Of a stretch of 64,000 nt of DNA, positions 1-22,731 are shown one piece after another (position 1 is the first letter of the stretch; each line of letters begins with the position of its first letter). Location of the stretch: contig JAFVEM010000027.1 in the NCBI GenBank assembly GCA_017476005.1, positions 1 through 64,000 of the forward strand, read 5' to 3'. Position numbers and translations under genes: made by a program. The notes under the pieces were generated by a model that made no database searches, had not been told where the DNA came from, and saw only the letters and a list, made by a program, of their open reading frames with translations. Origin of the DNA: Selenomonadaceae bacterium. GTDB taxonomy: Bacteria; Bacillota; Negativicutes; Selenomonadales; Selenomonadaceae.

Positions 1-262
1 CACATTTCTTTCCCTCCATCTACCTGCCGCATCTACCACCGCTTGCTCCGTGTAGCTATTGGACTTCAACCTGTTGTGCGGCCTTATCCCAAGCGATAGC
101 CTAATATACGATTTCTGTTCGTCAGGCCAGAGGTTTGCTGCCGGCTTCCTTCAGATTCCACCTCACGATGGACACCCTTGCCCTTGGCTATATCCTTCCC
201 ACTACCGGGCGGATTCCGGACTTCCACCGGTTAGAAATGTGCGCCGCCGGGCGCACACACAC
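1..262. other. Non-coding, repeat-like stretch with terminal hairpin
   Basis: I see no convincing gene here: the open frames cross the terminator of the neighbouring gene and have no good start. The last part ends in a perfect hairpin, TGTGCGCC/GGCGCACA, at about 239-258. The composition and wording of the stretch remind me of dispersed non-coding repeats in gut Firmicutes genomes. That is an impression from memory, not a match I could run. Confidence 0.3.
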
Positions 263-8299: not shown

Positions 8300-8376
<77 letters not shown>

Positions 8377-9204: not shown

Positions 9205-9312
9205 TCATTTTTTCGAATTCTTTCCCTGCGCCCGGATTTTTTCGATGCCCCAGCGAACGAGCACTTCCAATGCTTCCACCACAAGTTTCAGCAAAATTTC
9301 TTTGTCCTTCAT
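9205..9312 (-). CDS. 35-residue protein coupled to the DUF932 gene
   Basis: The ATG overlaps the TGA of the preceding gene (ATGA), so translation is probably coupled. The product begins MKDKEILLKLVVEALEVLV and ends in a basic tail GKNSKK: a short amphipathic helix with a charged end. A strong terminator follows 20 bases after its stop, so it is the last gene of the transcript. Function unknown. Confidence 0.5.
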   Translation of the reverse strand: MKDKEILLKLVVEALEVLVRWGIEKIRAQGKNSKK

Positions 9313-10406
9313 GCCATAGCCAACTCCTTCCTTATCGGCGTGATGTTCTGCATGGTTGCCATGGGAAACGCTTTTGGAACCGGCAGGGCGAGGATTGCGC
9401 CGCCGATGCGCTCCAACTCCGTTGCCCGTTCGTAGTCCACCGCGTTCTGCGAAGCTGCTGTGACAGCATTCAAAAGACCATAGCGGGTGCTGTCGCCTGT
9501 GAGGAAGAGCTGGCGGAAGATGTCACCGCATTCGTTCTCTGTGAGGGAGAATCTGTCAGCCAGTAGTTCCACTTCCTGCATGGGCTGGTGTTCCAAGGGA
9601 ATCTGCATGGCCTCCCACATCCTGCCCACGGTCAACATGAATTTTGCTTCATCGGCGGCACACCTCACCGTATCCTGCACCTTCATAAAAAAGGCTTTAT
9701 CGTCCTGCGCCAAGGTTTCATCACTGTAAAGCTCATAGGCCGTATCCTCGCTTTCGATTTGCCTGCCGACATGGCGCCTTTTCTGGGTGAAGTCCTTGCA
9801 GATCATGCCGTTCTTGCATATCAGGCGATAAATCAGCGGCTCCACCGTCAGGTGTCCCAAGCCTACCTCGCTGTTCGATATGACAAACCTCGCTTGCACT
9901 GCATCGCCCACGCTGATTTCGGCTTTCATCCGCTTGTTGATGACTTTCAGATAGAGATGAGATTCGGTTACTTCGCAACTCTCGATGGATGCCCCCTTCA
10001 TCTCATGGATGATGGGAAGCACAGCGGCACAAAGTTCCAGATTGTCCAAACGGCGATAGCGGTCGGAGAGGAACGCCCTGACATTCCCATCCATGACACG
10101 GAGCATCCTCCGTTCCGGCGCTTGCTGCAGCCAGTTATTGACATTCTCATCCAAGAGGGCAGGAGCCTCCATCTGCATCCTCTGGTAGTATTTGAGAGGG
10201 ATGCCCAGCCGTGCCGAGATCTGCTGATGGGCGAGTGGATTCACCCTGAACTCCAGCAGCTTCTCTCCCGTCGAGAATGTCAGCCTTGATGTGCCGTCCT
10301 CCGTAAAGAAGGTGAGCTGCCGCGTGTCTGCCACAAAGTCCTGCCTTGCTTTTCTCTGCCTTTGAAGTTCCACGCCTAAATTTTCCAATGTTCTTCCCTG
10401 TTTCAT
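9309..10406 (-). CDS. DUF932 phage/plasmid-like protein
   Basis: The product has 365 residues. The start is the ATG 8 bases after GGAGGAGG; an upstream extension to 10505 crosses this ribosome site. The central region (about 60-290) is a DUF932 domain, seen in FRVNPLAHQQISARLGIPLKYY and in the block that follows RVMDGNVRAFLSDRYRRLDN. DUF932 proteins are found on plasmids, phages and integrative elements. Their biochemical role is not known; links to DNA metabolism have been proposed. It supports the mobile-element reading of this region. Confidence 0.8.
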   Translation of the reverse strand: MKQGRTLENLGVELQRQRKARQDFVADTRQLTFFTEDGTSRLTFSTGEKLLEFRVNPLAHQQISARLGIPLKYYQRMQMEAPALLDENVNNWLQQAPERRMLRVMDGNVRAFLSDRYRRLDNLELCAAVLPIIHEMKGASIESCEVTESHLYLKVINKRMKAEISVGDAVQARFVISNSEVGLGHLTVEPLIYRLICKNGMICKDFTQKRRHVGRQIESEDTAYELYSDETLAQDDKAFFMKVQDTVRCAADEAKFMLTVGRMWEAMQIPLEHQPMQEVELLADRFSLTENECGDIFRQLFLTGDSTRYGLLNAVTAASQNAVDYERATELERIGGAILALPVPKAFPMATMQNITPIRKELAMA

Positions 10407-10744
10407 CGTAGATGCCTCCTCCATATTCGTTACAAGGCACGGATGGTTTTGCCGCGCCCCTGATTCATTGGTATAGTATGTCGTTGAAAAGGAGGAGTTT
10501 GCCACGAATCCGAGGAGGTTGGCAGGATTTCCCGCAAGAATGCAGAACTTTTAAGGAAGAAGATGACGTTGAAATTTCTGCATTGGAAGCAAGTCTTAAC
10601 GCTATCCCCATAGCCGGATTCCGTGGTCATGCAGAAATGCAGGGCGGCACCATGAAGGACTGGGGCAAAGCGAAATAAAAAAGACGGTGTTCCCGCCAAG
10701 AAAATCAAGGATTTAGATGATGACGTGAAGGGGGATTCAGCCTT
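10407..10744. other. Stretch without a confident gene
   Basis: An open plus-strand frame ends at 10678 with the codons for KDWGKAK, and a second frame runs from about 10668 to a stop overlapping the next start (VPAKKIKDLDDDV). Both look like ends of coding sequence in different frames, so this may be a decayed small gene upstream of the glutaredoxin-like gene. I cannot assign it. Confidence 0.3.
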
Positions 10745-12535: not shown

Positions 12536-13819
12536 CTACAATTCAAGCATACTCTTGGAATCCAACATAAATCTGTCAAATTCTCTACGATTGTTAAATT
12601 GCATTTTAAACCCAAACAATTCGCCCATATCTTTGGCTATGATACCAACGTCACCAGCCTTCATTTCTGAAATTGCTTTATCAAGTTTAATACGATTATT
12701 GTCAATAACTATCTTTTCTTTTTTGCAGAAGTCAGTTATTTTCTTTTTCAGCAGATTCAAGCCAATATCCATCTGCTTAAATTCTGCTATATTCTTCTGA
12801 TGCTTTATTTCGTATTCTATACGACGCGGATTTATGGCAATGTATTGAAAAACCAAATCCAAAAACCTTAGCCATGCCGTCAAGTTGAGATGGAGCAGAA
12901 AAGTTACGGCATTGCCACCGCCTTTCATTCCGGCGGCAATGCCATCCACCAAACAAAATGAACCATGGGCAATTAAAAGCATTTTATGTAAACTGGTATT
13001 CGACAATTTGGGAACACATTTGTCGAAAGTTAAGCCATGATAGTAATGGCGCTTCAGTACCCATGCACAACGAATAATTAACTCATTTAACACTACTGGC
13101 ACAGCGGTTGCAATGCCAAACCGCAAATCATAGCCCTCTTGAAAAACCCGTGTCATAACCACGGCTAAATCTTGACGGTCTTTCCCTACTTGGAAACTGC
13201 CAAAATTACAACTCAAAAACATCTCGTAAAAGGGTAGAGGCACCCCTGATCCAGTGCCATTATTGCCCCTGCTGCCGCTTGACCCCACTACATCGCTCAT
13301 AACATGACCGAACCAGTTGCATATAGCCGCCACCAGTTTGCTCGGGAAATCACTCCCACGAAGTTCCATATGCTTGGTGTCGAGAACAATTAAACGCCCA
13401 TCGCTCAAAAAAGTGCCTGTATCGTTAAACTGATCGACTATGGAGAAAAACAAGCCGATAATATCCGGGCTGTGCGCCAAAGATTTTATGTGGTGATTGG
13501 TCGTTCCCATGGTAAAACCGTCACGCATAAAATTTGCTGATGTCATATCGTAGTTCACCGGGAATTTTTTCTCCAAAAAACCTATTGCCGAAGCGATGTT
13601 CCCCTCTTGGCCTAGGCGAGGATTCCAACCGCATAATTTAGCAAAAGATTTCACGACGGAATCCATTACATCATTCGATGCTTTCCCCAGTGCAGATGCT
13701 CCCGGCCTGTTTACGAAAAGTACGTCGATTATCCCAGCAGAAATTCCGCAAAATGCCGCCAGATAATAATCGTATTTATCGCAATTTTGGAGGGCAGCGT
13801 AGCCCGTAAGTTTAGCCAT
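12536..13819 (-). CDS. Unknown protein, last gene of the dynamin operon
   Basis: The product has 427 residues. Its ATG overlaps the end of the second GTPase gene by 8 bases, so the two are translationally coupled. I do not recognise the family. The N-terminal half is mixed and fairly hydrophobic (YYLAAFCGISAGIIDVLFV at about 18-36), there is a small-residue stretch GSSGSRGNNGTGSG, and more hydrophobic segments lie at about 225-320. The last 90 residues are a charged helical region rich in Lys. The pattern suggests a membrane-associated partner of the GTPases. The codon choice is AT-rich like the rest of this operon. Confidence 0.7.
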   Translation of the reverse strand: MAKLTGYAALQNCDKYDYYLAAFCGISAGIIDVLFVNRPGASALGKASNDVMDSVVKSFAKLCGWNPRLGQEGNIASAIGFLEKKFPVNYDMTSANFMRDGFTMGTTNHHIKSLAHSPDIIGLFFSIVDQFNDTGTFLSDGRLIVLDTKHMELRGSDFPSKLVAAICNWFGHVMSDVVGSSGSRGNNGTGSGVPLPFYEMFLSCNFGSFQVGKDRQDLAVVMTRVFQEGYDLRFGIATAVPVVLNELIIRCAWVLKRHYYHGLTFDKCVPKLSNTSLHKMLLIAHGSFCLVDGIAAGMKGGGNAVTFLLHLNLTAWLRFLDLVFQYIAINPRRIEYEIKHQKNIAEFKQMDIGLNLLKKKITDFCKKEKIVIDNNRIKLDKAISEMKAGDVGIIAKDMGELFGFKMQFNNRREFDRFMLDSKSMLEL

Positions 13820-15545
13820 GGGCGGCTACCTGGTTTATTTGTGCCAAGAGATTGTTTATCTCTCGTTGATATTCGGCAATTTTGCCATTGTTTATTTTTT
13901 TCTCATCGGTCAACGCCTTATCGGCGTGAAGAGCATCATTTTTTTCTTTGATTTTTGCCGTTAACACACCGTCAATACCTATTCCCAACATTTTGATTGC
14001 CGCTTTTACTTTATGAGCATAGTCGGAATAAGAATTTGCAATATCAGCCTTACATTTGTCTATCCGTTGTTGGTTCTCCTTTTTTTCCTTTTCGTCCTTA
14101 TAAGTAAAATAAAGCCCTAACAACATGGGAGCCACAGCTGCGATTCCCATCATGCCTTTTCCTGCCATCTGCATGGCCTCGCCCCAACCCCTTTGTCGCA
14201 CTAATTCTTGTCCGATTACTCCGCGATTGAAAAAGCGTTGCACCGGGCCGAAGAAGCCGTTAAACCCCATACCTTTTCCCACTTCTCCGAAAGTTATCGC
14301 CGCACGATTGGCACCGGCCTTTGCAAGGTTTTCGCCCGCCTGTCCAAAAAGACCGGCCATTTGACCGCCTACTTTAACCGCCTCGGCTTGGAATGGGTCT
14401 GTCACGCCAAGATTTTGAGTATCTAAATGCGAGTTGGTCTTGGCTATGGGTACGGAAAGCATTTCTTTTTTAATGTCTATATCATATAATTGGGAAAGGT
14501 TGGCTACTTCTTCATCAATCATATCAATTTTCTCATCCACTATTTGACGAACCTGCCCTCTGGCATTTTCATCATATGCGTTGATATCTTGCTGATTGGC
14601 TCCCATATATAGTTGGTCTTTCACCCCATTACCGATATTTATGATTTCGCTCTCTGCGCTATCGGCATATTCGTTAATCTTCGCAATAATCTCACGTCTG
14701 GCATTTTCCAAGTTTTCCTTGTCGGTATAAATTTCATCGGTATCTTCACCCTCAATGGATTCGTTATCCTCGGCAATTTCTTCCAAAGTATTCATGCAAG
14801 CGTGAAGAGGACGGCAGAGTTTTCCTATGAGACTTTTCTCCGTAATAAAACGGTTAAGATTGTCAATAAAATTTTTTTCGCCGCTTATGTCCAAATAGTA
14901 GTTTTTAGACTCTTCGTCGGTTTCCTTTTGCCCAGTGAGATAATCCTCGGCATCAATAAAAGAAACAAAGAAGTCTTCCGGTTTTTTGTCGGGAGAGGTT
15001 ATCTTAACCAAATCGTCTCGCAGAATATTTTGTTGCTCTTCAACATTCCCCAAGGCGGTCTTGTTCATTTTGTTGACCACCAAAATCATAGCATCCGCTC
15101 TTTGCTGCTTGAAAGCCATATCCCTAAATGATCCAGCCATCATATCATCGAAAAGTTCACTGGTAACCACAAAAATAAGCATGTCCGCTTCCAATATGGC
15201 CTGTTTGGTGATATTGTCGTGATCTTCACGGATGCCGGTTTTTATGCCGGGAGTATCTATAATTTCTACGCCGTTCCAAGCATAGGCGGTGGCTTTGTCC
15301 GTGGTAATGTCGGCGGCAATGCCAATAGATTCGTCCCCGGTGAGCATCTTGGTAATAGAGGACTTACCGGCGGCGTATTCTCCCACCAAGACGACTTTCA
15401 CCTTTTCTCGCTCGGCCATAATGTCGGTCAGTTTGTCTTTCAGTTCCGCCGCTTTTCCCGTCATGCTCAGGCTGTCTAAATCACGCATTATCTTGTCCAG
15501 TGTTTCCTGCACTTTCCTGTTAGCATCTGCCAGTATAAACATCAT
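13812..15545 (-). CDS. Dynamin-like GTPase, second of the pair
   Basis: The product has 577 residues from the ATG after GGGAGGAG, one base past the previous stop. The N-terminal GTPase domain has a P-loop GEYAAGKSS at about 54-62, the switch region ITTDKATAY, the G3 motif DTPG at about 96-99 and a canonical G4 motif NKMNK near 157. Long predicted helices follow (about 250-400), then a glycine/alanine and hydrophobic segment near 460-482 (MAGKGMMGIAAVAPMLLG) that could insert into membrane, and a final coiled coil. This order of GTPase, stalk, hydrophobic tip and stalk is that of bacterial dynamin-like proteins. It likely hetero-oligomerises with its neighbour, as paired bacterial dynamins do. 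Confidence 0.85.
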   Translation of the reverse strand: MMFILADANRKVQETLDKIMRDLDSLSMTGKAAELKDKLTDIMAEREKVKVVLVGEYAAGKSSITKMLTGDESIGIAADITTDKATAYAWNGVEIIDTPGIKTGIREDHDNITKQAILEADMLIFVVTSELFDDMMAGSFRDMAFKQQRADAMILVVNKMNKTALGNVEEQQNILRDDLVKITSPDKKPEDFFVSFIDAEDYLTGQKETDEESKNYYLDISGEKNFIDNLNRFITEKSLIGKLCRPLHACMNTLEEIAEDNESIEGEDTDEIYTDKENLENARREIIAKINEYADSAESEIINIGNGVKDQLYMGANQQDINAYDENARGQVRQIVDEKIDMIDEEVANLSQLYDIDIKKEMLSVPIAKTNSHLDTQNLGVTDPFQAEAVKVGGQMAGLFGQAGENLAKAGANRAAITFGEVGKGMGFNGFFGPVQRFFNRGVIGQELVRQRGWGEAMQMAGKGMMGIAAVAPMLLGLYFTYKDEKEKKENQQRIDKCKADIANSYSDYAHKVKAAIKMLGIGIDGVLTAKIKEKNDALHADKALTDEKKINNGKIAEYQREINNLLAQINQVAAHG

Positions 15546-15546
15546 C

Positions 15547-17487
15547 TCAAACTCCTCCCACAACGATAACCTTTTCTTGCAACATATTTTCCAATAAAGA
15601 TACGTTGCTACCGGTAAAGTTTTCTCCGTCTCTAAGGTATATTGTCATAGAAACTCCGATTTTACGCTCTACCTTCTCCCAAAAGACGAGTTGGGATTTC
15701 AAGGCAGACTCAATGAGATACCCGTTGAGATCACCAATAATACCCGTGAGGCCGGGCAGTATATTTTTGGCGTGAATGTCCTCCACATCGGCGAAAAGTT
15801 TCTTGAACATACGATTTCTGTGATTGATGTCATTTATATTATCTTCGATTTGTTTTATAATACCGTTAAACTCTGCGAAATTTCCCGTTAGAATATAATC
15901 TATTATGGGAGTTATCTCGTCTTTTAACTCTTTTTTTCTGTTTTTATGTTTAACGTCTATATCATCGGCAAAATATTCCACCGCTTTGGCAATGCCAAAT
16001 TGTGCCACAGTTATAGTCATTCCGAAGGGAGTAAAACTTTTTATCAAATTAGCAGCTGCTAACCCCCTGCCAATAAGGTTGACTGCTCCTCCTACGCCTC
16101 CTACATTGCCAACATATCCCGCCCATTTTTTTACATCTACCAATTCGCCGCCGGAAAATGCCAAATCTTTTATGGTTGGAGAGTAAAAACTGTAATTTTT
16201 AGCAAAGGATTTCCCCTCGTTTTTCAGAAGAAAATTGTAATTGTCTATAGTTCTGTTGGCGAACTCCTCCATTTTTTGTTCAATGTTACGACGAGAAATA
16301 AAGTCGCGGAAATTACGGTTTATAGTTTCCTTGTCCTTCTCATGGTTGGTTTCCACAAAACTGTCCAAAGCTACCATGATTTCTGTTCGCAGATTCTTCC
16401 TCTTGGCTTCAGCTTCGCTGCGTATTTTGTCTAAAAAGGAGTTTCCCTTTTGCGCTATATTGTTGCTCTCGTCGACAAACAAACGGCAGTTTTGAGCAAG
16501 TTTAACTTGAAACTCCCGAATTTCGACAAGCAAATCCATCAAAGGTTTTTCGACGATATCAACGAAGGTTTTAAGTCTAAATACTCTGCCGCGATTTTTG
16601 ACATATTCGGCGATATGGTAGGTAACGTTGGAAAAATGACTGAGGGAATTATACAAATCTCGTTTTTGCGGATCGGTTGTATGCATAGCGTCAAAGGCAC
16701 ACTTCAAGTGTACCGGCACAAATTCGATATTGCTCCAATCTTGATGGTGGCTTTTAGTGCCAAATTCAAAAAATTGATGGATAATATCAGAAATATCGCG
16801 GGAGGCGTAGGCCTTTTCAATATCCTTCTTTAATATTTTATCCGGGCGGTTAGTGCTTACTCTAACATTCATAATGCCTAAAACAGGTTTTCCCAAATCT
16901 CTGATGCGAGACATAGCTTCTGCTTCCTTGGGAGTCGCTTTGTTGTTTGTCAAAAGGAATAGTATCAAGTCTCCCTTGGGTACGGCATCATAGGCAACGT
17001 CTTCATCTTCCTGTCCGTCAGCAGCGGCAAAGCCCGGCACATCCCAAATTTTTAGTCCGTTCCACTCGTAAGAACGCACGTCGCGGGTAGTTCTTTGAGC
17101 GCCTTTGCCAATAGTGCTGCCATCGCCGTTGGTCAGTATCTCCATAAGGGTAGATTTACCCGCCGTGGTTTTTCCAAACACAACTACGGTGAATTTTTCC
17201 ATTTCTCGACAGCGGTTTTCGATATCCTCACGGATACGCTCAATTTCCACTTCGCTGTATTTTTTTAGCTCCGTCAATTCATCTGCCAAATCCCGCCATA
17301 CGGGATTATTTTGAATTTCCGAATGTGCGCTGACCACATCCGTCATTAATCGACGAATGTTATCCGCTTCTTTTTGTACAATGTAGCATATTAAATCTAA
17401 AGAAGCCTTGGCATATTGTGCGCTTTCCTGCGCCGATTGCTCACATTCCTTTAAAAGTTCCGTATCCAGTACGGCAGATTTGCCCAT
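15547..17487 (-). CDS. Dynamin-like GTPase, first of the pair (LeoA-like)
   Basis: The product has 646 residues. An N-terminal helical region (1-95) precedes the GTPase domain, with a P-loop GKTTAGKSTL at about 105-114, a switch threonine in QRTTRDVRSYEW and the G3 motif DVPG near 148. The G4 position reads IMNVRVST instead of NKxD, so nucleotide specificity may be altered. A long helical stalk follows, with a glycine-rich hydrophobic hairpin at about 459-495 as possible membrane paddle. The family groups with LeoA-type bacterial dynamins. It differs clearly from the next GTPase, so this is a two-component pair. The gene lies 7 bases after the glycine-rich membrane-protein gene. Confidence 0.85.
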   Translation of the reverse strand: MGKSAVLDTELLKECEQSAQESAQYAKASLDLICYIVQKEADNIRRLMTDVVSAHSEIQNNPVWRDLADELTELKKYSEVEIERIREDIENRCREMEKFTVVVFGKTTAGKSTLMEILTNGDGSTIGKGAQRTTRDVRSYEWNGLKIWDVPGFAAADGQEDEDVAYDAVPKGDLILFLLTNNKATPKEAEAMSRIRDLGKPVLGIMNVRVSTNRPDKILKKDIEKAYASRDISDIIHQFFEFGTKSHHQDWSNIEFVPVHLKCAFDAMHTTDPQKRDLYNSLSHFSNVTYHIAEYVKNRGRVFRLKTFVDIVEKPLMDLLVEIREFQVKLAQNCRLFVDESNNIAQKGNSFLDKIRSEAEAKRKNLRTEIMVALDSFVETNHEKDKETINRNFRDFISRRNIEQKMEEFANRTIDNYNFLLKNEGKSFAKNYSFYSPTIKDLAFSGGELVDVKKWAGYVGNVGGVGGAVNLIGRGLAAANLIKSFTPFGMTITVAQFGIAKAVEYFADDIDVKHKNRKKELKDEITPIIDYILTGNFAEFNGIIKQIEDNINDINHRNRMFKKLFADVEDIHAKNILPGLTGIIGDLNGYLIESALKSQLVFWEKVERKIGVSMTIYLRDGENFTGSNVSLLENMLQEKVIVVGGV

Positions 17488-17494
17488 AGTACCA

Positions 17495-18562
17495 TCACCC
17501 CATATATTTTAAAGCGATCTTTAGCTGTTTAGAATCGCCTTGTCCGATGCGTTTATCCGTCAACACCGCATTCAATTTTTCACCATTGAATGTGAGATTG
17601 CCTTTATCGTCCAGCAATTTTACGTCTACGATTCCTTTTATGACCTTGGCAATCATAGCGGCAATGCATAAATTGTCCTTCGCCTTTTCGCTAAACAACC
17701 GATAATCACATTGGTATTTCCCATTGTCACGGCGCATATTGCCGATAAGCCTCGGTATATTTTGCGACAGCATAACCATAGCGCGATTAAGGTTTTTACT
17801 CCGCTCTCTTAATATCCGCAAAATTTCCACGGACTTATTTACGTTTTTTTGGAATCGTATAGCCTCATCCTTATTGGTCAGAGCTTCTAACAATTTGTTT
17901 TCGGCTTGCCTGTCAAGTATTGCACCGCCTAACGCCAAAGCCGGCCCTGCAACCAATCCTCCAAGCACAGCAGTACCTCCGGCGATGCCCATACCGCCTG
18001 TAGCCAGCGATCCGCCGCCAAGCCAAGCTAAAGTTGCATTGGTGGCGGCAGCCCCGCTTAATGTCCCTATTGCCGTGCCGGTAGAAGCTGCGGCAAATCC
18101 GCCGTACATTACCGAACCATACGCTCCAAAAGATACCAATGCGCTTCCTGCGGTGCTTAGAGTCCCTGCCGAGGCTATTTTATTTGCAGTAAACGTTACT
18201 TCCGATATGTCTGCTATTTCCGGGCTTTGCGGAAGAAATTTGGAAAGTTCATGGGAGTAGATAGTCTTTTTGAAATCGACGTTTTTAATTTTCTTAAACT
18301 CACTGACAAATGGAGTCAATGCGTTGCTAAGAATATGAATTTTTGACTTGGAAAACAGTTCCAAATCTTTTTGGGTCTGCTCCTTTTGGGCTTTCATCAG
18401 TCGGTTGGCTTCGGTTATAATATCTTTAACTTCTGCCATGACCGCCGATGCTTCTTCGTTTTTACGATTAGCGTCTATTCCTTTTCTGACACCAAAGGCT
18501 CCGGCAGCAGCGCTAACTCCCATGAGAATAACGGGAACAAGCATGACAGCCATGTACTTCAC
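17495..18562 (-). CDS. Membrane-anchored protein with glycine/alanine-rich hydrophobic core
   Basis: The product has 355 residues; its ATG overlaps the previous stop by 4 bases. An N-terminal membrane helix (about 3-24) is followed by a coiled coil (28-75). A long stretch at about 125-215 is almost wholly Gly, Ala, Ser, Thr and Val with no charge (for example SLATGGMGIAGGTAVLGGLV), which suggests a membrane-inserted hairpin bundle. A helical C-terminal domain follows. I do not recognise a family. Its position directly before two dynamins suggests a membrane receptor or scaffold for them. Confidence 0.7.
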   Translation of the reverse strand: MKYMAVMLVPVILMGVSAAAGAFGVRKGIDANRKNEEASAVMAEVKDIITEANRLMKAQKEQTQKDLELFSKSKIHILSNALTPFVSEFKKIKNVDFKKTIYSHELSKFLPQSPEIADISEVTFTANKIASAGTLSTAGSALVSFGAYGSVMYGGFAAASTGTAIGTLSGAAATNATLAWLGGGSLATGGMGIAGGTAVLGGLVAGPALALGGAILDRQAENKLLEALTNKDEAIRFQKNVNKSVEILRILRERSKNLNRAMVMLSQNIPRLIGNMRRDNGKYQCDYRLFSEKAKDNLCIAAMIAKVIKGIVDVKLLDDKGNLTFNGEKLNAVLTDKRIGQGDSKQLKIALKYMG

Positions 18563-18897
18563 TCCATATCCCTTTGTTCCTTAAGTTGTCTGCGAATTTT
18601 TCCCTGTATCTTGGTTTTGATGGCATTAACCAAAAGAGATATATCAATTTTACGGTCTTTCGGAAGATAGAAATACACGGGCTGACAAGCCCCGATCATA
18701 TCTTCCGGCGATTCTATCTTTACTTTACCGTAAACGGGGTCTTCGTAACGGATAAAATAGGCAATGAAAGATATTCTGATGCCCTTAACCCTGACTTCTA
18801 TCATAGGAATCCTTGCTCTGGCAACGGAAATTTTACGCAAGGCATCGGAAAGGCCATCATCTGCGATGCCGTCCTCAATTTTTATTACTTCGACCAT
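18559..18897 (-). CDS. 112-residue protein of unknown function in the dynamin operon
   Basis: The ATG follows GTGAGGAA; a GTG three codons upstream is too close to any ribosome site. It is a small mixed alpha/beta protein with MIEVRVKGIRISFIAYFI (about 31-48) and a strongly basic C-terminal helix KTKIQGKIRRQLKEQ. There is no signal peptide. It overlaps the next gene by 4 bases (ATGA), so it is probably translated with it. Confidence 0.65.
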   Translation of the reverse strand: MVEVIKIEDGIADDGLSDALRKISVARARIPMIEVRVKGIRISFIAYFIRYEDPVYGKVKIESPEDMIGACQPVYFYLPKDRKIDISLLVNAIKTKIQGKIRRQLKEQRDME

Positions 18898-18934
18898 TTT
18901 CCTCACCCTCTGCCATGATACAAACCAGAATACT

Positions 18935-19090
18935 CTATTTTTTCTTAAGTTGAGAATTGATTACCGCTTTTACAATTTTAGTGGTGGTCTTGGGATTGTT
19001 TACGGCGGTTTTGACGATATTCTTCGTGCCGAAAGCGGAGATTGCCGCTTTTGCCAAAGTTTTGCCTATATTTTGCAGAATTGAAGCCAT
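18935..19090 (-). CDS. 51-residue basic peptide in the dynamin operon
   Basis: A clear ribosome site AGGAGG sits 9 bases before the ATG. The product begins MASILQNIGKTLAKAAISAF and ends NSQLKKK. It contains nine lysines and no acidic residues, and could fold as an amphipathic helix followed by a second basic helix, like membrane-binding peptides. It lies within the operon with gaps of 37-49 bases on both sides. Too short for many gene finders. Confidence 0.7.
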   Translation of the reverse strand: MASILQNIGKTLAKAAISAFGTKNIVKTAVNNPKTTTKIVKAVINSQLKKK

Positions 19091-19139
19091 GCAAACGCTC
19101 CTCCTTTTTTCGTTACCACTTTATTTGTTCTCACCGAAA

Positions 19140-19565
19140 TCATGATTGCTTCTTAGCATCATCATCCAGTTTCGCCAAGGCTTTCATGCCGAACAAGTCC
19201 TGTATTTTCCCTCGCGCCTGCGCCTTGATATCATCATTTATATACATCTGAGCAAGCAAAAGTGCCATGCCGATGGCGGTAGCATCATCGGCATACCCGG
19301 CAATGGGCGTGAAATCGGGAATGAGGTCTATGGGGGAAATGAGGTAGCCCAAGGCGGCATAAATACCGGCTTTAACTTTTTTCGGGCAATCCGGCGATTG
19401 AGCCACATAAAAAAGCTGCAACGCTTTGTAGATGAGTGTGATGCCGATGGCAGTGACATTTTCACGGATTTTACCCCACAATCCGTCTTCGGAATATTCC
19501 TCGGCATATTTTCCCATGTCGATATTTTGTAAATCTTCTTCCTTAGTAAGGATTTCCTTGTCCAT
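19140..19565 (-). CDS. YkvA-like (DUF1232) membrane protein
   Basis: The product has 141 residues; the ATG follows AGAGGAGG. A polar N-terminal tail (about 1-35) is followed by the DUF1232 core, with VKAGIYAALGYLISPIDLIP and ADDATAIGMALLL as the two membrane-associated helices. These proteins are small inner-membrane proteins of unknown biochemical role that often occur near stress and membrane genes. It lies 51 bases after the XpaC-like gene in the same operon. Confidence 0.8.
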   Translation of the reverse strand: MDKEILTKEEDLQNIDMGKYAEEYSEDGLWGKIRENVTAIGITLIYKALQLFYVAQSPDCPKKVKAGIYAALGYLISPIDLIPDFTPIAGYADDATAIGMALLLAQMYINDDIKAQARGKIQDLFGMKALAKLDDDAKKQS

Positions 19566-19616
19566 GAGCTACCTCCTCTGATAGTAAAAAAACACGGAAA
19601 TATGCGTACACATTGT

Positions 19617-20537
19617 TCAGCTGTTATCATTCTTATTTCCGAAAAATTTATATGCCCCAAATACTGCCGCCACCACACCTGCCACCGCACCAACATATTT
19701 GAAATTCAGTCCCGTGCCCTTGGGCTGTTCCGGCTTTGGCAGCGTTTCTTGGACTTCCTCCGGCAGAGTTTTATGTATATCCTCATAATCTACTCGCGCC
19801 TCGCAGTTAATCCCGTCTTCGCTCATTACCTGCCTTGCCACCTTCATCTCCGCATCCATGCTCAAAATGTCGGCATCAATAACCTTGACTAATTGCTTTT
19901 CATAGGCAGAAACAAATCCTCGGAATGTGGTTATCATGTCACGTTCGAGTTTCGCCAGAGCCTCCGAGCGTATTCCCGTCGCCCTTAATGCGCTATACTG
20001 CTTCAAAAGCTCCGCCGTGCGGTCTTGATAGTAGTTGACAAATTCTTTGGCAACAGGCATACGCTCCGGGTGGTCGTTTAGGTAATGAAACAATTTTGTA
20101 GCGATTTTAATAAGCTGCTCGGTCAGAACGGCAATTTCCTTATTCTGAATGCCGGGAAAAGCCGAGGCGATATATTCATAATCTGCCGTCGCTTTAGCAA
20201 ACATCTCGTGGTCAACATAGTTCGCGCCCGAAAACAGTTCTGTTGACGCTGATGGTTGGGGTGCAAAAATTTTCTTTTTCTCGCGGGCATTGGAAATCTT
20301 CGCCCTAATGCAAGCTGCACCGCAAATAATCGCCGTTGCCAGCAATGTATTCTCCGTGGGATACGCAAAACCAAATTCCTTAGACAAAACCGTGAGACTC
20401 AACACAGCCCCAACGACCGACAAGAGATACCCTCGAATCGGCTTCTCGGTTGACCATGCAATTCCCCCGATAAAAAGAACAAAGGGCAATGCCATAATGG
20501 CAAGCACAAGACATAGTCCAAATGCCAACTGCCCCAT
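19617..20537 (-). CDS. XpaC-like membrane protein
   Basis: The product has 306 residues. Three N-terminal hydrophobic helices lie at about 3-24, 33-50 and 62-78. The C-terminal soluble part (about 115-250) resembles the XpaC family (named for 5-bromo-4-chloroindolyl phosphate hydrolysis). It has the sequence FVNYYQDRTAELLKQYSAL and a later segment DADILSMDAEMKVARQVM with the family's Asp/Glu-Met pattern. A proline-rich linker and a final membrane helix (YVGAVAGVVAAVFGAYKFF) end the protein. XpaC proteins often accompany TelA tellurite-resistance proteins; no TelA is here. It is the second gene of the dynamin operon. Confidence 0.75.
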   Translation of the reverse strand: MGQLAFGLCLVLAIMALPFVLFIGGIAWSTEKPIRGYLLSVVGAVLSLTVLSKEFGFAYPTENTLLATAIICGAACIRAKISNAREKKKIFAPQPSASTELFSGANYVDHEMFAKATADYEYIASAFPGIQNKEIAVLTEQLIKIATKLFHYLNDHPERMPVAKEFVNYYQDRTAELLKQYSALRATGIRSEALAKLERDMITTFRGFVSAYEKQLVKVIDADILSMDAEMKVARQVMSEDGINCEARVDYEDIHKTLPEEVQETLPKPEQPKGTGLNFKYVGAVAGVVAAVFGAYKFFGNKNDNS

Positions 20538-20543
20538 TTTTCA

Positions 20544-20996
20544 TCACCCCATCTGACACACCTCGCTCTTGGGTGCGATAGATTTCAAAACGCTGTCCAG
20601 TTCCTCCGTAAGTGCCTCAATAGTGGCTTGGATGTGCTTAGAACGGGCAACGGAAACTTCCTGCGTGACCTCTGCGGTAAGTTCTGCCCGCTCCTTGACA
20701 TCACGGAGCAGGGAGTCTCCTCGTTCGGTCAGTACGGCCTGCATTTTCTGTATCGCCTCTTGGCACTCGGTGTAGACATGAGAACGCTCCTCGTCGGTTT
20801 CTGCGCTTTCCATAGCGGCAAGTGCCTCGTTCCGTACCTTTTCCACAATCGCAGCCAGATTTTCCTCGCCCGAGGTTTCCGAAGTGAGCGGTTCCTCCGG
20901 TTCCTCTTTCTGCAAGGTGTCACACAGCATAACCCCGGCGATCAGTCCGATTGCGCCCCCGGCAGCCAATAGCAGTCCGTCTTTCATGTAACTCAT
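20544..20996 (-). CDS. Membrane-anchored coiled-coil protein, first gene of the operon
   Basis: The product has 150 residues. The start is the ATG after AAAGGAAAGG; a longer frame to 21062 is unlikely. A single membrane helix (about 8-26, LLLAAGGAIGLIAGVML) is followed by an acidic linker and a helical coiled-coil domain rich in Glu and Ala (about 45-140). I do not recognise a family. It is separated by 6 bases from the XpaC-like gene, so it probably begins the nine-gene operon. Confidence 0.65.
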   Translation of the reverse strand: MSYMKDGLLLAAGGAIGLIAGVMLCDTLQKEEPEEPLTSETSGEENLAAIVEKVRNEALAAMESAETDEERSHVYTECQEAIQKMQAVLTERGDSLLRDVKERAELTAEVTQEVSVARSKHIQATIEALTEELDSVLKSIAPKSEVCQMG

Positions 20997-21063
20997 GGTG
21001 TACCATCCTTTCCTTTCGCAAATGAATCCGGCGATGGATATAGGATAGCGCATATTCACCATG

Positions 21064-21098: not shown

Positions 21099-21626
21099 TC
21101 ATTCTGCGCCCCGCCGATTGGTAAGAGGTTCAAAACCCAACTCGTAGAGAATGGCATTGACGGTGTCCAGATTGTAGACCTTTTCCCGGATGAGGCATTC
21201 CACGGCCAAATCCCGGCGACTGCTGTGCGACAGCGTAAACCCCGCGCTCCCGATGAGGTCTTTTGTCTCGGCAAGGGACAGCTTGAGGACGATGGCGAAA
21301 GCCAGTGCCGTTTCCTTGGATGGCTGATAATCCGTGTTTAGCTTTATCTTGGAAAAATGCTGCTTGGTGATGCCAGCCTTCGTGTATACATCCGACGGTT
21401 TGCAGCCCCGCTTGTCGATGAGGGCGATAAGCCGCTCCGAGAAAGTCTTGCTCCGTAGGTTCAGCATCGTCGAAATGATATTTTTGATTGCCCTGCCCGT
21501 TTTACCGAAAGAGTCCGAGGTGTCCGGCTGACGCGCCCACCGTATCCCGCTCTCCGGTGTATAGTGCTTTTGAATGTACTTTTCTACGGTTTGGAGCAGG
21601 GTATCGGATATTTTGCCTTTGCTCAT
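21099..21626 (-). CDS. HTH-domain regulator upstream of the dynamin operon
   Basis: The product has 175 residues; the ATG is placed 9 bases after GGAG. After an N-terminal region the core has FSERLIALIDKRGCKPSDVY, then AGITKQHFSKIK and YQPSKETALAFAIVLKLSL, an XRE-like HTH module. I remember the same module as the C-terminal part of some macro-domain proteins of Firmicutes; no macro domain is present here. It may regulate the dynamin operon that begins about 100 bases downstream. Confidence 0.65.
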   Translation of the reverse strand: MSKGKISDTLLQTVEKYIQKHYTPESGIRWARQPDTSDSFGKTGRAIKNIISTMLNLRSKTFSERLIALIDKRGCKPSDVYTKAGITKQHFSKIKLNTDYQPSKETALAFAIVLKLSLAETKDLIGSAGFTLSHSSRRDLAVECLIREKVYNLDTVNAILYELGFEPLTNRRGAE

Positions 21627-21651
21627 TGTCATCTTCTCCCACTAACGAATC

Positions 21652-21718
21652 AATAGAGAGGCCATGCGAAAAATTCCCTATCGGTATCAATGATTGGTAT
21701 TCGCACGGCCTTTCTATT
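21652..21718. promoter_or_regulatory. 19-bp near-perfect stem-loop between the two regulators
   Basis: Arms 21652-21670 and 21700-21718 match at 17 of 19 positions (core GGCC.TGCGAA) with a 29-base loop. The right arm overlaps the end of the XRE gene. It has no T run, so it looks more like an attenuator, processing site or operator than a simple terminator. Confidence 0.5.
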
Positions 21719-22121
21719 CGAGAGAGTTTATGAGCATTTTTGAAGAATGATCCGGCAAGTCTTCTGTTGGGCAATCCTCCGCCTCTTTCATGGGTTCCAA
21801 CGTATCCTGCGAATCCGTAGCGTCTTCCTCTGAATTTGCAGTGGGTCGATGCATTGCTGCACGGCTCAAACAATCCAGATAATTTTGGCAAGGTTCTTCC
21901 GCCATCAAGATACAAACAGGCACATTCAAGGATTTTGCTATCTGAATCATGGCCGTACAGGTGATGCCCTTATGCAGATTCGCCCGCTCGATTTGGCTGA
22001 TATACGCACCGCTGATTTGTGATGACTCAGCAAGTTGCTCCTGCGTCATATGTTGCAACACACGAAAACGATAAACATTGTCGCCGATATAGCGATAGCT
22101 TTGATTAACCAGTCCCTGCAA
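21714..22121 (-). CDS. XRE-family transcriptional regulator
   Basis: The product has 135 residues if it starts at the TTG after GGGGGGTG; a GTG six codons upstream is also open but lacks a spaced ribosome site. The HTH_3 domain occupies about 5-65, with RFRVLQHMTQEQLAESSQIS and GAYISQIERANLHKG as the recognition region. The acidic tail is unstructured and has no known domain. It is the kind of repressor that controls phage or ICE genes. The excisionase-type gene is divergent, with a roughly 400-base control region between them. Confidence 0.8.
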   Translation of the reverse strand: MQGLVNQSYRYIGDNVYRFRVLQHMTQEQLAESSQISGAYISQIERANLHKGITCTAMIQIAKSLNVPVCILMAEEPCQNYLDCLSRAAMHRPTANSEEDATDSQDTLEPMKEAEDCPTEDLPDHSSKMLINSLE

Positions 22122-22205
22122 GATGTATTCACCCCCCACGCCTCACATACTATGAACATTGTGGCAAATTCAGCCCCAAGTGTCCAGAGACCCACGGTTT
22201 AGTTT

Positions 22206-22545: not shown

Positions 22546-22731
22546 ATGTATGATGAAGGAACGCCATTGATAACCGTGGAAGAGCTGTGCGTGGCTTTGA
22601 TGATCGGGAAGAATGCCGCCTACCGCTTGCTGGCCGAAGGAAAGATCAGATGCTTCCGATTGGGGAGAATATGGAAGATACCGCGAGCCAGCTTGGAGGC
22701 GTACATCCGGGAGCAGAGCAGGTTGACATAG
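22546..22731 (+). CDS. Excisionase-family DNA-binding protein
   Basis: The product has 61 residues; the ATG follows GGAAGGAG. It is a MerR/Xis-type winged helix, seen in LITVEELCVALMIGKNAAYRLL and the C-terminal RLGRIWKIPRASLEAYIRE. Such proteins direct excision of integrative elements or act as small regulators. It supports the view that 8.4-24 kb is a mobile element. A hairpin follows its stop. Confidence 0.8.
   Translation: MYDEGTPLITVEELCVALMIGKNAAYRLLAEGKIRCFRLGRIWKIPRASLEAYIREQSRLT

Follow-up and report, generated by a model that had tools for sequence, protein, structure and literature searches.

A putative composite membrane-defence operon with an Eleos-type dynamin pair, a PDC-M09A protein and a BnzB–M09B chimera in a Selenomonadaceae bacterium

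The window analysed here is a contiguous stretch of 64,000 nucleotides from a 2.7 Mb genome assembly of a gut-type Selenomonadaceae bacterium. Nine tightly packed ORFs, all with open frames, occupy positions 12536-20996 on its minus strand (Table 1). The successive gaps in gene-to-gene order are -8, -17, 7, -4, 28, 49, 51 and 6 bases, and the junctions around the two Leo genes measure +7 (g4/g3), -17 (g3/g2) and -8 (g2/g1). The initial annotation had described nine minus-strand genes with overlaps or gaps of at most 51 bases, two HTH regulators and a composition unlike that of the surroundings, all of which were recovered: the HTH genes lie directly upstream, and the G+C content over most of the operon is 0.42-0.45 versus 0.50-0.54 in the flanks. 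For g9, a start at 20996 fits the homologue at locus L115 more closely than the longer ORF beginning at 21062, and LeoA may start from an ATG at 15545 rather than from the TTG at 15563.

Table 1. Genes of the operon and the two regulators upstream, with the basis of each assignment
Gene	Product	Position	Strand	Basis
g1	Chimeric protein, putative effector: BnzB core (residues 10-342) and PDC-M09B-type C-terminal tail (336-427)	12536..13819	-	PADLOC; ORF search
g2	LeoA dynamin-like GTPase	13812..15563	-	PADLOC LeoA, full profile; motif comparison
g3	LeoBC dynamin-like GTPase	15547..17487	-	PADLOC LeoBC, nearly full profile
g4	PDC-M09A, Gly/Ala-rich membrane protein with flanking helices	17495..18562	-	PADLOC; alignment
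g5	115-residue protein	18559..18906	-	ORF; relatives none found
g6	51-residue basic peptide	18935..19090	-	ORF; relatives none found
g7	YkvA-like (DUF1232) membrane protein, paralogous class	19140..19565	-	Pfam; class distribution
g8	XpaC-like membrane protein, accessory (non-TelA) subclade	19617..20537	-	Pfam PF10112; tree
g9	Coiled-coil protein, anchored N-terminally	20544..20996	-	Homologues beside YkvA, HTH, LeoBC or M09A genes in relatives
g10	HTH regulator, seen with g9 and g7 in relatives	21099..21632	-	HTH_26 E=2e-3; co-occurrence
g11	Cro/CI-type HTH regulator	21714..22139	-	HTH_3 E=8e-8

The operon is surrounded by core chromosome genes, and a defence island is not recognisable. tRNA-Gln, tRNA-Pro and tRNA-Arg genes lie to the left, and TatC-, SMC-, FtsY- and PolA-like genes, identified by reading the sequence, lie to the right. 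A decayed tRNA-Arg element had been proposed as the carrier. The tRNA-Arg gene is real (8300-8376), but a second copy of its 3' end is absent from the window, a direct repeat of the tRNA sequence was not found between 8.2 and 24.4 kb, and a search for an integrase was negative, so that the window shows neither of the two marks expected of an element integrated at tRNA-Arg, an integrase and a repeated tRNA 3' end. The strand opposite to the operon carries, upstream of it, an excisionase-like HTH_17 gene (22546-22731) and a YhgA-like gene (PF04754, 22871-23596); an HTH_17-like gene also lies near an accessory XpaC gene at L305. A group II intron domain is matched at the window edge (1-172, minus strand). 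The window further holds an intact DUF932 gene (9309-10505), which may mark the carrying element and has relatives near LeoBC-LeoA (L065), BnzB (L053) and YkvA (L168) loci.

The two different dynamin-like GTPases of the initial annotation proved to be full-length LeoBC and LeoA (PADLOC E=6.9e-75 and 1.5e-77, respectively), a pair of the anti-phage Eleos type, with profile coverage of 16-563/601 and 7-555/559. Motif comparison indicates that G1 and G3 are intact in both proteins, with the P-loop GEYAAGKSS and DTPG in LeoA and GKTTAGKST and DVPG in LeoBC. The G4 motif of LeoA reads NKMN, which is rare in the family, most relatives having NKMD. LeoBC is matched in 46 of the 189 genomes of the order. 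The two window genes are adjacent and agree in strand and order with most of 88 other distinct LeoBC loci, where LeoBC and LeoA usually form a bare pair. This is in contrast to the window, where the operon has seven extra genes and the pair is nested between M09A and its partner. Since XpaC, YkvA and the coiled-coil gene are all absent from 84 of the 88 loci, the LeoBC-LeoA pair needs none of these accessories. In E. coli, LeoA, LeoB and LeoC influence the release of membrane vesicles (PMC4159319), and paired bacterial dynamins are thought to work as hetero-oligomers on membranes (PMC6104087).

Two further features were observed at Leo and dynamin loci elsewhere. A third gene of ~195 residues (KLILVCKDK...WEEKTWDVKRK...) is conserved directly downstream of LeoA in 12 clostridial Eleos loci (L180, L181, L182, L185, L187, L190, L191, L200, L203, L204, L224 and L229), and neither Pfam nor PADLOC gave a match for its L180 copy. 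A second, divergent dynamin pair is present at L066 (13305-17532, Centipeda periodontii), where it is adjoined by a g10-type HTH gene, and at L174 (13265-16844), where a YkvA paralogue lies ~4 kb off.

The initial annotation had rightly recognised a Gly/Ala-rich membrane protein, but missed the families of g4 and g1. g4 belongs to PDC-M09A (PADLOC E=1.6e-26), part of the PADLOC candidate system PDC-M09, and an alignment of 23 relatives reveals the conserved core STGTAI..LSGAAATNATLAWLGGG. Its identity reaches 38% with M09A proteins partnered by M09B and is 22-30% with most of those partnered by BnzB. In a neighbourhood survey of about 40 loci of the class, the gene next to a short M09A is M09B or BnzB in almost all cases, and the same adjacency is found on a Lactiplantibacillus plasmid, an Azospirillum plasmid and one phage. 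In the window, LeoBC and LeoA set g4 apart from g1 by about 3.7 kb. Because M09A elsewhere nearly always adjoins M09B or BnzB, we read this split as a nesting of the Leo pair within the M09A pair; a second M09A-LeoBC-LeoA-BnzB nesting was absent from the loci fetched (about 40 for M09A, 88 for LeoBC).

PADLOC cross-hits between M09A and LeoBC hinted that M09A might be a dynamin devoid of its GTPase. This candidate was rejected, as the profile-profile probability was 9.6% and was confined to one coiled-coil stretch. The AlphaFold2 model of M09A (mean pLDDT 36.5) is unusable for the fold. Single-protein pattern scans of g3, g1 and g4 found nothing, and alignments were needed. A long M09A type of about 480-890 residues, mostly without M09B, is found at L118-L130; at least two of its members (L118 and L124) end in an RNPAAH-like motif suggestive of HEPN, and the long type adjoins dynamin-size GTPases at L121 and L127.

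g1 matches two families in separate parts. Residues 10-342 match the BnzB profile (PADLOC E=4.6e-125). In a search of ~60,000 ORFs, residues 1-335 matched BnzB proteins only (best E=2e-111), and residues 336-427 matched M09B proteins only, at their extreme C-termini (best E=4.3e-7). This core/tail search replaced a first M09B profile that had included the window protein and whose window score was therefore circular. g1 is a BnzB core fused to an M09B tail, and in the simplest reading g1 and g4 together represent an M09 pair in which the effector part has been swapped for a BnzB core and the tail kept. The window accordingly holds the M09B C-terminal tail without a full M09B directly adjacent to M09A, the N-terminal and middle parts of M09B being replaced by the BnzB core, which is 43-44% identical to BnzB of M09A-linked pairs. 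Two-gene M09A-BnzB cassettes exist on a plasmid and a phage. M09B N-termini vary between loci, consistent with effector swapping; one M09B (L115, 9372-10784) matches PDC-M40B at residues 35-222 and appears HNH-like by eye. WYL regulators lie near M09 and Bunzi pairs elsewhere.

The likeness to Bunzi is confined to the BnzB core. Canonical Bunzi requires BnzA, and neither the PADLOC profile nor phmmer detected BnzA in the window, where M09A takes its place; as a positive control, true BnzA was readily detected at L049, L271 and L272. g1 also lacks the N-terminal ~150 profile positions of BnzB and gains the M09B-type tail. An invariant His/Asp set in the BnzB family (D32, H109, H116, H172 and D176 in g1) suggests that BnzB may be a metal-dependent enzyme. 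A more specific assignment as a YdjM-type metal-dependent membrane hydrolase, made by eye from the conserved His/Asp order, is at most a weak idea, as the hhalign probability was <1% and Pfam gave no support. The BnzB fold model (mean pLDDT 67.7) has no significant match in the PDB or among viral models, and nothing usable on the Bunzi mechanism was found in the literature.

The XpaC-like and YkvA-like proteins of the initial annotation hold up (PF10112 E=5.1e-18 for g8; DUF1232 E=3.6e-14 for g7). In an XpaC maximum-likelihood tree, which is unrooted and has long branches, six genes without a TelA neighbour, that of the window included, are split from 16 housekeeping XpaC genes with support of 100/99. 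Most of the housekeeping genes were seen beside a TelA-like gene; one of the 16 is the window genome's own housekeeping XpaC, located elsewhere with a TelA-like gene nearby. Three of the six accessory genes adjoin LeoBC-LeoA, namely the window copy, the one upstream of the pair in G016 and the one downstream of it in G121. Outside the window, XpaC-LeoBC adjacency was thus seen twice versus about 0.005 expected by chance (p=1e-5, a rough post hoc Poisson estimate). The YkvA paralogues form a class that is distinct from housekeeping YkvA and shares about 50-80% identity among relatives. This class lies near M09A-M09B in three genomes (G072, G051 and G230, the last a more distant one) and adjoins LeoBC in G071; by the same rough post hoc estimate, the associations outside the window have p=8e-4 for M09A and p=0.07 for LeoBC. 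The coiled-coil gene adjoins LeoBC in G022, and coiled-coil and HTH genes accompany the same gene set in relatives. Searches with g5 against Pfam, NCBIfam, PADLOC, PHROGs and 378 other genomes of the class were negative, and relatives of g6 were not found in the four profile collections. Nothing usable was found in the literature linking XpaC or YkvA with dynamins.

The YkvA paralogue also adjoins kinase-VWA-PP2C cassettes in G128 and G052. At three Selenomonadaceae loci (L160, 3968-8737; L161, 8136-14765; L164, 8331-16141), YkvA and coiled-coil genes flank a cassette of protein kinase, VWA and PP2C genes, joined by an HTH gene at L161 and L164; these cassettes resemble Ter-type signalling triads. 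The window shares relatives of XpaC, YkvA, the coiled-coil protein and the HTH regulator with XpaC-TelA and Ter-type cassettes. It differs from them in that its operon holds neither TelA nor kinase, VWA and PP2C genes, and in that its XpaC falls in a separate clade.

The nine-gene set was seen once, and parts of it recur in relatives in other combinations. Conservation of at least five of the genes together, proposed at the outset as support for a single system, was found in none of the 189 genomes of the order or the 380 of the class. The opposite expectation, that homologues would be scattered and never co-occur, does not describe the data either: several relatives have XpaC, YkvA, coiled-coil or HTH genes next to LeoBC-LeoA or to M09A-M09B. 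The proposal of a larger, different assembly stands, in that an Eleos-type pair lies within a larger operon that probably serves membrane remodelling or defence; it had overlooked that two named defence or candidate-defence families are present, one nested in the other. The operon thus looks like neither a wholly new kind of system nor an ordinary Eleos locus, and instead like a composite, modular one. We consider the chances about even that it is a composite membrane-defence operon, probably anti-phage, that merges Eleos with membrane accessories of the Ter type and a chimeric PDC-M09/Bunzi pair.

Several other explanations were weighed. Eleos and the PDC-M09/Bunzi-like pair may be two independent systems that came to share a promoter by chance insertion, the accessories belonging to only one of them. 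The LeoBC-LeoA and M09A pairs are each usually found alone, and the M09A-BnzB cassettes of the plasmid and the phage consist of two genes only, which makes this reading a possible, though rather doubtful, one; an insertion that falls exactly between two partners, where two junctions overlap by 8 and 17 bases and the third leaves a gap of 7, and the independent joining of XpaC to LeoBC-LeoA elsewhere argue against it. We regard as improbable that the operon serves envelope stress of the Ter/XpaC-YkvA type rather than phage defence, with the dynamins and M09A-BnzB repairing or remodelling membranes after chemical or peptide stress. The pairing of housekeeping XpaC with TelA and the Ter-like cassettes flanked by YkvA, coiled-coil and HTH genes in relatives would fit such a role, but BnzB, LeoBC, LeoA and M09A all fall in defence or candidate-defence profile families, and M09 and Bunzi pairs are carried on phages and plasmids. 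An assembly of unrelated mobile genes without a common function is very improbable: a complete homologous operon was not found, G+C is low, and excisionase-like and YhgA-like genes lie just upstream, yet the spacing is tight, all frames are open and sub-pairs recur in relatives.

If the operon is a composite defence operon, a course of action can be proposed. The HTH proteins would keep expression low until infection or envelope stress, and XpaC, YkvA and the coiled-coil protein could serve as a scaffold or sensor bound to the membrane. Where the inner membrane is damaged or occupied by phage, LeoBC and LeoA would assemble on it into a hetero-oligomer driven by GTP. M09A may act as a Gly-rich platform in the membrane to which the effector g1 is held by its M09B tail; this tail, shared by g1 and M09B, is where contact with M09A would be expected. 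The dynamins would gather the complex into clusters or keep the membrane intact until the BnzB core acts at the membrane and kills or arrests the cell, which would stop the phage; the block to phage spread would thus come from action on the membrane of the infected cell.

The tail suggests a docking part that permits the exchange of effector cores. More tentatively, and with the balance leaning against it, the whole may be one integrated machine, in which the Leo pair is built into the M09A-effector pair and GTP-driven oligomers position a swappable effector, with its BnzB core and M09B docking tail, on a dedicated XpaC/YkvA scaffold; were this so, M09A systems in general would be effector-swapping platforms. 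Eleos, Bunzi and PDC-M09, treated as separate catalogue entries, are linked here by one gene order and one chimeric protein, and the accessory XpaC and YkvA emerge as possible membrane partners for bacterial dynamin defence.
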